A stretch of 64,000 nt of DNA from Tistrella mobilis KA081020-065 (lineage in GTDB: Bacteria; Pseudomonadota; Alphaproteobacteria; Tistrellales; Tistrellaceae): NCBI RefSeq assembly GCF_000264455.2, contig NC_017958.1, positions 186,001-250,000 of the forward strand, read 5' to 3'. Both the position numbers and the translations under genes were made by a program. Below the pieces are notes generated by a model, which did no database searches, was not told the DNA's origin, and saw only the letters and a list, made by a program, of their open reading frames with translations. The stretch's first letter is position 1. Every line of letters starts with the position of its first letter. Positions 13,112 through 17,165 of the stretch are shown here, in pieces.

Positions 13112-14143
13112 TCAGGAGGTACCTGGGCGGGTCTGGGCCTGCCAGAACCTCCGCAGCCGATCGTGAGGTTCGCGCATCCAGCGCTCACAGAGCGCGATCT
13201 CGGCGGCTGAGGCCTCACGACGCTTACGGTCACCATCGGGAACGAAGGCCGGACGGTCGCCGCGGCCCTTGGAATAGAGCCGCGCCTCGCGCTCCATCCC
13301 GGCGATTTCTTCCGGCTGCGGCCGGATGCCGAGCCAGGGCAGAATGCGGTCGATCACCGCCCCCGGCAGCTCGGCATGGTCGACCAGCAGCCACCCGGCC
13401 GGCGCGCCGGCGATCCTGTCCGCCGCCAGAGACAGTGCCCGCCCGAGAACGGCGGCAATGAACGTCTCGATGTCCATGCCGGCGGCAGCGGTCGGCCGCA
13501 TGCCCAGGCTGAAGGCCCGACGCATCGGGTTGTGAAACGAGAGCGACCAGCCGGGCCGAAGGCGCAGGTTCGAGACCAGAATCTCCAGCGGATCCCGCAT
13601 CACGAAGACCTTGCGCATCCGAGGCGCGACCGTCTCCAGCTCGCCGAGGCGGTCCAACCCGATGCACGAGAACTTCACCATAAAATACCGGGCCTCGGGC
13701 ATCATCGGACGCCCGAGCAGGGCAAGCACAAGGCGCAGATCATCCTGCCTGACACCGGCCGGAACCGGCGTCCAGAACGGCCCCATCAGATCGAGCAGCG
13801 CTTCCGGCTCGTCGGCGATCTGCACGCCGCCGATCCCGCCCAGCATGTTGGCGACCAGGGTCGACCCGCAGCGCGAGGCATGGAAGATCCCGGCCGTCAG
13901 CGGCAGGCTGGTGGCCGGAGACGGTCCGGCAGCCAGAGACGGTCCGGCCGTCAGGGACGGATCATCCAGCGACAAATCCCGGAAGAGCAGATCCCGAAAG
14001 GGCGCATCCGCATCCCGCGCCTGACGCAGTGCCGCACGGAACGACCAGCGGCCATCAGCCGGCCGGGCGGCGGACCTTAGGCGCAGACGCCGGCCGTCGC
14101 GGGTGATGAGCGCCCGCTCGGGCAGCTCCCATCCGGCGATCAA
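13112..14143 (-). CDS. Sulfotransferase-family protein, putative lasso-peptide tailoring enzyme
   Basis: A 343-residue protein with the two PAPS-binding signatures of sulfotransferases: a P-loop-like HASRCGSTLVANML (about 88-101) and RDPLEILVSN (about 183-192) for the 3'-phosphate. Residues about 58-82 are a low-complexity stretch rich in Leu, Thr, Ala, Gly, Pro and Ser, encoded by short tandem repeats. The start is a TTG at 14143 whose last two bases form part of the TGA stop of the lasso precursor gene (TTGA overlap), the best evidence that it belongs to that pathway. No other in-frame start lies nearby. It could sulfate the peptide or another small molecule. Some sulfotransferase homologues have other chemistry, so the reaction is inferred. 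Confidence 0.75.
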   Translation of the reverse strand: MIAGWELPERALITRDGRRLRLRSAARPADGRWSFRAALRQARDADAPFRDLLFRDLSLDDPSLTAGPSLAAGPSPATSLPLTAGIFHASRCGSTLVANMLGGIGGVQIADEPEALLDLMGPFWTPVPAGVRQDDLRLVLALLGRPMMPEARYFMVKFSCIGLDRLGELETVAPRMRKVFVMRDPLEILVSNLRLRPGWSLSFHNPMRRAFSLGMRPTAAAGMDIETFIAAVLGRALSLAADRIAGAPAGWLLVDHAELPGAVIDRILPWLGIRPQPEEIAGMEREARLYSKGRGDRPAFVPDGDRKRREASAAEIALCERWMREPHDRLRRFWQAQTRPGTS

Positions 14144-14292
14144 CTCATATTGCGGGTGGCGAGACCTTCCGTAACCTGGCTGCCAGCCCCCTCGGTCTGA
14201 TCATGGATGGGCACGACCGTCAGCCTTGGCGTCGACCAGACCGCCGACGTCATATTGACACTGGCAGAAAGCTCACCGTTTCGATCGGTCAT
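14140..14292 (-). CDS. Lasso peptide precursor (50 residues), predicted core of 16 residues with Gly1-Glu8 ring
   Basis: Translation from the ATG at 14292 gives 50 residues. The leader contains WSTPRL (residues 19-24), a match to the YxxPxL recognition motif with Trp for Tyr, and ends ...DQTE with Thr33 at position -2 of the cut. The predicted core is GAGSQVTEGLATRNMS (35-50): Gly1, an acidic residue at position 8 for the macrolactam, and an eight-residue tail ending in Ser. AAGGAG lies 9 nt before the ATG. The stop overlaps the TTG start of the sulfotransferase gene, and the cyclase gene ends 99 nt upstream. It is too short for usual gene calling. The role follows from motif, context and coupling; the product is unproven. 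Confidence 0.8.
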   Translation of the reverse strand: MTDRNGELSASVNMTSAVWSTPRLTVVPIHDQTEGAGSQVTEGLATRNMS

Positions 14293-14391
14293 CGCCGGCT
14301 ACTCCTTAATGATGATGATTTGTGCAGACAATACACATTGCGATCGGCGCGGTGAACGGGCAAGAGCGTCGCCGCCCGGAGATGATGTGCC

Positions 14392-16308
14392 TCAGCCATT
14401 GCCACCCTCGGCCCGACAGATGAACTGCCCGACGCGCAACCCGCGCCCGACGGCATGCAGCAGGGGCAGCATGGTTTCCAGCCGGGACGCCTCTGTCGCA
14501 TCTGCGGGCCAGGCCTCGATCAGCCGCCGGATCTTCGGCAGGTCGAGCACCTCGCGGGCAAGCGGCGATGCCTCGCAGCGCGCGATCTCCGCCATCATCC
14601 AGTCGCGCCGGATGGTCATCCGGTGGAACCAGTCGGCATTTTCCAGACCCGTCCGGCGCTCGTCGAGCACCGCCTGCGGCAGACGACCGGCCAGGACCCG
14701 CCTTGCAAGCCAGCGGTCGCGGCCCCGGTCCAGATACTGCCCCGGGGGCAGCCCCAGGCAGAAATCGACCAGCCGGACATCGGTGAGCGGATGGCGCCGA
14801 TCGGCCGGATCGGCCCACATATGGCCGGAATGCGCGAGCTTCAGGAAGGTGTTCTTCTCGATCAGCTCGATTCGCATGTCGGCGTCGCGAGAGGCGGTGC
14901 ACCGTGGCGCATGGCCTGTAAGACGTCCCTCTGCGAGCCGTTCGCCGAGTGCCGGGGCAAGGGCGCTGCGTTCACGCCAAAGCTCCGGCCGTCCCCTGAG
15001 GCGCTTCACGGCAAGCCGCAGTTCGGGCGGCAGGGCCGGCAGCAGCGCCCATCCCAGAAATTCCCGGAGCGGTGATTTGCCCTGGCGTGCCCGCCCGGCC
15101 AGATTCGATGCCAGAGCCCCGAAGTGCAGGCGACGAAGCTGATCGGCCATCGCAAGACGCCCGTCCCAGCTGAGCGACAGATTGCCGCCCTCGCCCGTCA
15201 GCACCACACGCGCCCCCAGATCGCGCGCCAGATCCGGTGTCGGGTGATAGAGCCCGTCCGAGAACAGCCAGCTCATCGGCCAGTCACGGCGATGGAAACG
15301 ACCGCCCGGATCTTCATCCGGCCCCGTCGGCTCCGGCGCCACCACATGATGGGGCACCATGTTCGGATAGAGCGGCGGCACCAGCCGGGCACCATCCCAC
15401 TCATCCTGGATCAGCCCGGGCACCTCGGGCAAAGCCACCATGGGCTGCGGTCGCACGGTCACGGTATGCAGGGGCGCCGGGCCCCGCAGCCGGGCCGCCG
15501 TCGTGGCCACGGCGGTGGAATCGAGCCCGGCCGTCAGATGGCAGAGCAGCGGTTCGTCACCGGCCGGCAGACGACAGGCGACCGCCTGTTCCAGCAGATG
15601 GCGGGCCGCCTCGACATAGTCGTCATCGCGCCGGAACCGGATCCGGCGGGTGTGATCGGGCTGCCAGTACCGCCAGAGCCGCAGACGGCCGTCGGACCAG
15701 GTGAGCCCATGCCCCGGCGGCAGCATGTCGATATCGGTGTGAACGGTGCGATTGGGCCGGCGATGGGCGGCGGCGACCAGCGTCAGCCCCAGAATATCCG
15801 GATCCAGCCCCTGGGGAACGGCCGGGTGGGCCAGAAGCGTATCGATCCGGGACGCGAGCAGAATACCGTCCGGGCGGCAGCAATAGAACAGCGGCCGCCC
15901 GCCCATCTGGTCGATCGCCGCAATCAGCTCCCGGCGCGCCGGATCCCAGCGGATGACCGCAAAATCGCCCACCCAGGCGGCGGGGGCAGCCTCTCCCTGA
16001 CGGGCCAATGCGGCTGCGGCAAGGGTGTCTGCCTCCGTTCCGGCCGGATGGTCGAGCATGGCGGCGAGTTCGGCAGCATTGTAGAGGGCACCGTCGAACA
16101 GGCTGACACTGCCATCCGGTCCCGGCCGGCATGGCAGGGGCCGCGGGGGCCGCGACGACGGTCCGGCCGCCCCGGTCTGGAGCAGCAGGGCGATGCCGTC
16201 GTCATGGTGCCGGCGGATGGTCAGCCCGGATACGGACACCGCCGCCGCCGCCCGCCGGTCGTCGATGACGCCATAGTCTCGCCCGACATGCGCGAACAGG
16301 AGATTCAC
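14392..16308 (-). CDS. Lasso peptide macrolactam synthetase (asparagine synthase-like)
   Basis: A 638-residue asparagine synthetase homologue. The N-terminal glutaminase-like half (VNLLFAHVGRDYG, FDGALYNAAELAAML, GDFAVIRWDPARRELIAAIDQMGGRPLFY in pieces) lacks the catalytic Cys at position 2, as in lasso cyclases, which activate a side-chain carboxylate and join it to the Gly1 amine. The synthetase half has the ATP loop LTAGLDSTAVA and GEGGNLSLSWD. A GTG at 16308 is preferred because homologues begin MNLxFAHVG. A TTG at 16341 is the longest start. The precursor gene follows. ATP-dependent ring closure of the precursor is inferred. Confidence 0.85.
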   Translation of the reverse strand: MNLLFAHVGRDYGVIDDRRAAAAVSVSGLTIRRHHDDGIALLLQTGAAGPSSRPPRPLPCRPGPDGSVSLFDGALYNAAELAAMLDHPAGTEADTLAAAALARQGEAAPAAWVGDFAVIRWDPARRELIAAIDQMGGRPLFYCCRPDGILLASRIDTLLAHPAVPQGLDPDILGLTLVAAAHRRPNRTVHTDIDMLPPGHGLTWSDGRLRLWRYWQPDHTRRIRFRRDDDYVEAARHLLEQAVACRLPAGDEPLLCHLTAGLDSTAVATTAARLRGPAPLHTVTVRPQPMVALPEVPGLIQDEWDGARLVPPLYPNMVPHHVVAPEPTGPDEDPGGRFHRRDWPMSWLFSDGLYHPTPDLARDLGARVVLTGEGGNLSLSWDGRLAMADQLRRLHFGALASNLAGRARQGKSPLREFLGWALLPALPPELRLAVKRLRGRPELWRERSALAPALGERLAEGRLTGHAPRCTASRDADMRIELIEKNTFLKLAHSGHMWADPADRRHPLTDVRLVDFCLGLPPGQYLDRGRDRWLARRVLAGRLPQAVLDERRTGLENADWFHRMTIRRDWMMAEIARCEASPLAREVLDLPKIRRLIEAWPADATEASRLETMLPLLHAVGRGLRVGQFICRAEGGNG

Positions 16309-16364
16309 GGCACCGTTCCCACCTCGAATGGATGTCGCCAAGAGACGGCCGTCTGTCTCACGGC

Positions 16365-17165
16365 CTACCTATCCGGTCGGACAGGGCTCTGCAAGCCGGG
16401 AACGATCGGATGCGCCGCCGGCGTCACGCCGAAGCTCTGGCGGAACCGGGCGATGAAGCCGCTGACGCTGGCATAGCCGAGGTCGAAGGCGATGGCGGTG
16501 ACCGAGGCGCCCTCGGCGAGCATTTCCAGCGCGCGCATCATCCGGGCGCGGTGGCGCCAGTCGGTGAAGCTGAGGCCGGTTTCGCGCGGAAACCGGCGGC
16601 TGAGCGTGCGCGGGGTGATGCCCGCCCAGGCGGCCCAGCCGTCCAGGCTGCGTCCGTCGGCCGGATCTTCCAGGATCGCCTGTGCGATCCGCTGAAGGCG
16701 CGGCTCCGCCGGCATGGGCAGGCCGAAATCTTCGGCGGGAAGCCCCCTGATCTCGTCCAGGATCAGCCCGGTGATCCGGGCGCGCGCCGCATCCGTCCGC
16801 TCATCTTCCCAGCTCGCGGCGCGCAGGATCGCCTCGCGCAGCAGGGCCGGCACGCGCACCGTGCGGGGGGTGGACGGAAGCTCCGTGCAGCGATCGGGGC
16901 GGATATAGGCGGTCCACCCGGCGCCCGGCCCGAAGCTTCGCCCGCCATGCAACTGCCAGGGCGGCAGCCAGATGCCGTAACCGGCCGGCACCAGCCAGGC
17001 GCCCTGATCGGTCAGCACGGTGACGACCCCGCGGCTGCAGCCGATCATCTGGCCGCGGGGATGACGATGGGCCTCGGTGTCGAATTCGCGCTTCAGCTCA
17101 ACCGTGAAGGCTGCGACCTCCGGGCCGTCGAGGGCATGGCCGATCGTCTCGGGTGCATGGGACAT
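16365..17165 (-). CDS. AraC-family regulator with N-terminal cupin
   Basis: A 266-residue protein. The N-terminal cupin has REFDTEAHRHPRGQMIGCSRG and PAGYGIWLPPWQLHGG, the pattern of AraC regulators of the NimR/YdeC-like group. The C-terminal tandem helix-turn-helix (about 165-255) has SLDGWAAWAGITPRTLSRRF and VTAIAFDLGYASVSGFIARFRQSFGVTP. It starts 93 nt from the divergent PPOX flavoprotein gene and ends 56 nt before the lasso cyclase gene on the same strand. It may therefore regulate either neighbour; divergent control of the flavoprotein is the commoner arrangement. Confidence 0.85.
   Translation of the reverse strand: MSHAPETIGHALDGPEVAAFTVELKREFDTEAHRHPRGQMIGCSRGVVTVLTDQGAWLVPAGYGIWLPPWQLHGGRSFGPGAGWTAYIRPDRCTELPSTPRTVRVPALLREAILRAASWEDERTDAARARITGLILDEIRGLPAEDFGLPMPAEPRLQRIAQAILEDPADGRSLDGWAAWAGITPRTLSRRFPRETGLSFTDWRHRARMMRALEMLAEGASVTAIAFDLGYASVSGFIARFRQSFGVTPAAHPIVPGLQSPVRPDR

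Follow-up and report, generated by a model that had tools for sequence, protein, structure and literature searches.

A lasso peptide locus of Tistrella mobilis that encodes a probable sulfotransferase, without B1 and B2 genes

Gene content of the locus

On the minus strand of the window, by which the whole 64-kb stretch of DNA analysed here is meant, an AraC-type regulator, a cyclase, a precursor and a sulfotransferase follow each other in this order, with the features located as given below.

16365..17165, minus strand: AraC-type regulator, on the basis of PF12833 and AraC_binding
14392..16341, minus strand: divergent lasso cyclase (C), Asn-synthase-like, 649 aa from TTG at 16341 or 638 aa from GTG at 16308
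14140..14292, minus strand: lasso precursor (A), 50 aa, with residues 1-34 as the leader
14143-14190, minus strand: predicted core, codons 35-50 counted from the ATG at 14292
14185..14190, minus strand: Gly1 and Ala2, the first two core codons, counted from the ATG at 14292
13112..14143, minus strand: sulfotransferase-fold protein (STx), 343 aa from a putative TTG start

The TGA stop codon of the precursor and the TTG of the following frame share bases (TTGA), and this overlap is kept in the second species of the genus (locus L042) and in another genome of the same species (L145), as had been proposed as a check. The AraC-type gene, a possible regulator of the lasso locus by its location upstream on the same strand, occupies the corresponding site in the second species (L042:6445-7251). 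No exporter was seen in the three-gene unit of cyclase, precursor and sulfotransferase, and a PLSDB search with the locus gave no match.

In lasso clusters, B1 and B2 are typically encoded beside A and C, which is not a chemical requirement. Searches with the PF13471 (B2) and PF05402 (B1) profiles gave zero matches inside the 64-kb window, and L042 and L145, the orthologous loci, equally lack both genes. Frames, domains and profile searches confirm the original prediction that a cyclase, a hidden precursor and a sulfotransferase are present in a window devoid of B1 and B2, and the three-gene unit is a real lasso peptide locus with a probable sulfate-adding enzyme.

The precursor peptide

The precursor of 50 aa consists of a leader, MTDRNGELSASVNMTSAVWSTPRLTVVPIHDQTE, and a predicted core, GAGSQVTEGLATRNMS. 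As predicted for this frame, the leader contains WSTPRL, a motif of the form [Y/W]xxPx[L/V/I], and has Thr at -2, while the core starts with the small residue Gly1 and carries Glu8 as the Asp/Glu at 7-9. A Shine-Dalgarno-like AAGGAG stretch is located 9 nt upstream of the ATG, and Pfam and NCBIfam searches assigned the precursor to no family. A combined lasso pattern (W/Y-x-x-P-x-L/I/V/M, a gap of 7-9 residues, Thr/Ala at -2, a small residue 1, an acid at 8 and a tail of 5-12) has one match in the 64-kb window, which is this precursor, whereas Markov-shuffled windows give 0.017 matches on average, by which a chance frame is ruled out. The frame had been considered too short for gene calling; instead, its 153 nt, which satisfy the length minimum usual in gene callers, score poorly for coding.

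The frame is equally long in the genome of the window (G000), in G108 (L145, same species) and in G001 (L042, second species of the genus), with the WSTPRLTVVPIHDQTE stretch identical in all three. Within the cores compared, GAGSQVTEGLATRNMS, GGGSQVTEGLVTRNMS and GSGSQVSEGPRTRDMS, Gly1, Glu8 and the final Met-Ser are constant and other positions vary, with a dN/dS near 1 over the 16 codons between G000 and G001, a value derived from few sites. A constant leader and frame combined with such a core is the pattern expected of a RiPP precursor, and on the grounds of this conservation the frame is judged to be a real precursor. More distantly, related cores (AKGSQVTE...) adjoin related cyclases in Novispirillum (AKGSEVTESTTTKNTS, L087) and Rhizorhabdus (AKGSQVTESSTTRNSAS, L109), and in the related precursors position 8 is acidic and position -2 is Thr/Ala. 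Homologous precursors beside related cyclases, the absence of which had been named as a refuting observation along with a disrupted frame, are therefore present, and the frame is unbroken in close relatives. A C-terminal Ser is found in 30/32 precursor-like matches, with a search pattern that did not require it; the one clear exception is the precursor-like frame at L029:8267-8413, which lies next to kinase and cyclase genes and ends in Pro-Pro-Pro.

The cyclase

The cyclase is composed of an Asn_synthase (PF00733) and a GATase_7 domain. The GATase_7 match starts at profile position 25, so that the N-terminal part with the Cys is absent, which bears out the predicted lack of the catalytic Cys in the glutaminase half. 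Among NCBIfam models, the lasso cyclase NF033535 matches best (E 9.5e-46), with a score far under its strict cut-off of 525 bits. A PDB search with the cyclase profile retrieved hydroxyamidotransferase, beta-lactam synthetase, asparagine synthetases and, weakly, CarA, which are ordinary fold relatives. Close relatives of the window cyclase occur in clusters with B1 and B2.

The ortholog in the second species is 93% identical. Between G000 and G001, the cyclase displays a dN of 0.036 and a dS of 0.213 (dN/dS ~0.17) and STx a dN of 0.043 and a dS of 0.194 (dN/dS ~0.22), ratios by which both genes appear to be under purifying selection. A locus without local B1 and B2 and without a visible exporter in its three-gene unit might be regarded as what is left of a formerly complete cluster that is decaying and no longer makes a product, but with selection acting on both enzymes and with precursor frame, leader and overlap intact in two species this is highly improbable.

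B1 and B2 elsewhere in the genome

The T. mobilis genome of 6.5 Mb in 5 contigs harbours six cyclase loci at E <= 1e-40, none of which has a local B2. In the closest paralogous locus, L025, precursor (core GISNVSDDGFISTHS), cyclase, STx, PqqD and a 2OG-oxygenase follow each other, again without B2. A full-genome search, as suggested with the original prediction, recovered ten PqqD (B1-like) matches, several of which adjoin paralogous cyclases, and a single PF13471 match, a B2 of 146 aa on a different contig (C3:654729-655079), which reaches 71 bits against NF033537 (lasso_biosyn_B2; cut-off 33) and has Cys and His in place. Neither a cyclase nor a B1 is found near this lone B2 on C3, and a PDB search with it gave nothing. 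A second, divergent B2 was sought with a profile built from 16 B2 proteins, which found no further copy in the genome. The second species equally possesses one B2 of nearly the same sequence at the same site without a cyclase nearby. One B2 on another contig and B1-like genes beside paralogous cyclases support the proposal that B1 and B2 are supplied by another locus, with the genes at L024, L025, L029 and L031 as candidates for the B1 partner.

Besides these genes, PqqD and an HprK-like kinase occur together without a cyclase at two further sites of the same genome, L032 (contig C2) and L033 (C1), the latter with a 46-aa frame that contains WEIPTL and ends in Ser (L033:7244-7384). By gene content, these two loci possibly make linear phosphorylated peptides.

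The split arrangement in related genomes

A scan of one genome per species yielded 65 loci, and 59 cyclase loci with full flanks were taken from the combined set, in which a B2 within ~7.5 kb was counted as local. Such a local B2 is present in 23/59 loci, which are consequently ordinary lasso clusters, while 36/59 have no B2 within this distance and 12/59, including the window locus, have neither B1 nor B2. The split arrangement, initially thought to be uncommon, is hence not rare in this clade.

B2 was found in 46/49 genomes searched. Across 144 evenly sampled alphaproteobacterial genomes, B2 is encoded in 13/14 genomes with a related cyclase versus 7/130 others (Fisher p 1e-12, with kinship ignored and B2 local in several). 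A lone B2, with none beside a cyclase, is found in G000, G001 and G108, which belong to one genus, and in G040, G064, G074, G095, G097 and G102. Lone B2 genes thereby occur in 7/11 lineages with B2-less cyclase loci, compared with a background of 5% (p 4e-7); in this test, the 11 lineages had been selected for their cyclases, and some of the assemblies are drafts. In an IQ-TREE phylogeny, orphan B2 proteins are interspersed among cluster-borne ones, and the orphan B2 genes compared have no shared neighbours.

On the other hand, genome searches detected no B2 in the cyclase-bearing G005, G058, G071 and G081, and given these four genomes some B2-less cyclase loci may not use B2. The G005 genome, which is complete and from the same class, encodes B1, a kinase and a sulfotransferase in addition to related cyclases (L158, L159), and no detectable B2. 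The leader might accordingly be removed by another unlinked protease or not at all, with the lone B2 unrelated or serving only some loci. Precedents are the leader proteases AplP and TldD/E, which are encoded away from the cluster and serve other RiPP classes (PMC10885120); those, however, are metalloproteases, whereas the protease considered here is of the dedicated lasso B2 type. As B2 strongly co-occurs with related cyclases, Thr/Ala at -2, needed by B2, is kept in the precursors, and orphan B2 proteins do not separate from cluster-borne ones, this alternative is considered unlikely. Action of B2 in trans is, from the distribution of the genes, the best reading despite the four cyclase genomes without a detectable copy.

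The sulfotransferase and predicted sulfation

The Pfam assignment of STx is marginal (PF13469, E 0.035, below cut-off), and as the profile comparison of the STx family with PF00685-type sulfotransferases is equally weak (E 0.0009, probability 24), structure was used. The AlphaFold2 model has a pTM of 0.79 and a mean pLDDT of 74.5; confidence is low over most of residues 1-76, so that the start of STx is provisional. A Foldseek search with the model retrieved PAPS sulfotransferases with probability 1.00 and modest TM-scores of 0.4-0.5, the best being a tyrosylprotein sulfotransferase (E 7e-7; ~15-18% identity to TPST1/2). The predicted core contains no Tyr, and Ser or Thr would therefore be the acceptor, unlike in TPST1/2. 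In the family alignment RCGSTL is invariant and RDPLEILVS is present in all rows with variation; by analogy, these are read as the two PAPS-binding motifs. An APS kinase is encoded in the genome.

Among the related cyclase loci, 42/59 possess an HprK-like kinase. Members of the STx family are located near nine of the related cyclase loci, four of which have no kinase; at the window locus, STx is present and the kinase absent. In known lasso systems, an HprK-like kinase phosphorylates this C-terminal Ser (PMC9266682). The presence of STx without a kinase, combined with precursors that end in the very residue that lasso kinases phosphorylate, leads to the prediction that STx sulfates the C-terminal Ser16 of the core, while Ser4, Thr7 and Thr12 would be alternative sites. 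The calculated masses are 1559.736 Da for the lasso and 1639.693 Da with sulfate, a shift of +79.957 Da.

Whether the product is a lasso and whether STx acts on it can be viewed differently, as the window cyclase is divergent from curated lasso cyclases and the STx gene lies several kb away from the cyclase at L085 and L091, which would be compatible with an unthreaded macrolactam, a linear peptide or a sulfotransferase with another substrate. However, the precursor agrees with lasso precursors in residue 1, the acid at 8 and Thr at -2, relatives own full B1/B2/C sets, and the STx gene directly follows the cyclase at L025, L043, L051 and L052 and the precursor in the window, which makes these options distinctly unlikely. 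STx is a candidate tailoring enzyme of the lasso peptide, as originally proposed.

Proposed pathway

The locus probably represents an incomplete half of a lasso pathway, with B1 and B2 supplied in trans and the product sulfated by the local STx. A B1 (PqqD/RRE) protein from another locus would bind the WSTPRL leader motif and present the precursor to B2, whereupon the lone B2 cysteine protease encoded on the other contig would cut after Thr-Glu. The local cyclase would then join Gly1 to the side chain of Glu8 to give a 16-residue lasso, and STx would place a sulfate group, donated by PAPS, on a peptide hydroxyl, with Ser16 as the most likely site. Thr at -2 fits B1/B2 cleavage (PMC10885120), and B1 in trans is plausible as FusB1, an actinobacterial (non-Bacillota) B1, binds non-cognate leaders with similar efficiency (PMC13381572).

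In a wider and more tentative version, lasso biosynthesis might be modular across the genome in this alphaproteobacterial clade, with the lone B2 and shared B1 proteins processing the peptides of several B2-less loci on different replicons, each with its own cyclase and tailoring, which here would be O-sulfation of the C-terminal Ser, a residue phosphorylated in relatives. Should many unlinked loci depend on a single protease, they would be rated incomplete by cluster-based tools, heterologous expression of the locus alone would fail, and addition of the lone B2 could unlock many proteobacterial lasso peptides.

Relation to known lasso systems

The discovery, cloning and reconstruction of lasso pathways have usually dealt with complete A-B1-B2-C clusters. 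With the canonical split-B systems (B1, B2 and C; paeninodin, fusilassin), the window locus shares the leader motif, Thr at -2, the ring acid at 8 and the Asn-synthase-like cyclase, but B1 and B2 are unlinked, and a single B2 seems to be shared by six cyclase loci. The kinase-tailored SyanA/SyanK clusters of Sphingobium yanoikuyae likewise involve proteobacterial precursors ending in Ser (PMC8498205, PMC9266682), while the window locus has no kinase, B1 or B2 and a sulfotransferase instead.

A sulfotransferase gene in a lasso locus, originally assumed to be uncommon, has a precedent in the putative one already noted in paeninodin-type Firmicutes lasso clusters (Zhu et al. 2016, cited in PMC8498205). 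Those clusters contain the essential lasso genes, whereas the window locus has neither B1 nor B2. A literature search, with most subscription journals outside its scope, retrieved neither lasso loci served by a lone B2 nor a sulfated lasso peptide, and within this literature sulfation, if true, would be a new modification for the class. We know of no sulfated product shown for the paeninodin-type Firmicutes clusters.

Tailoring genes at related loci

PF00685-type sulfotransferases always occur with an HprK-like kinase in the 59-locus set (28/28; for example L024:11385-13072, L045:10738-12326 and L046:10892-12570), and judged by this association the two may act jointly, for example on a phosphorylated C-terminal Ser. 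The Tistrella-like and Ferrovibrio loci L025, L043, L051 and L052 share a closely kept core, G-x-x-x-Q/V-S-x-D-G/F...NTHS or STHS, and in addition to STx carry PqqD and a 2OG-Fe(II) oxygenase, from which hydroxylation is a possible extra step at these four loci.
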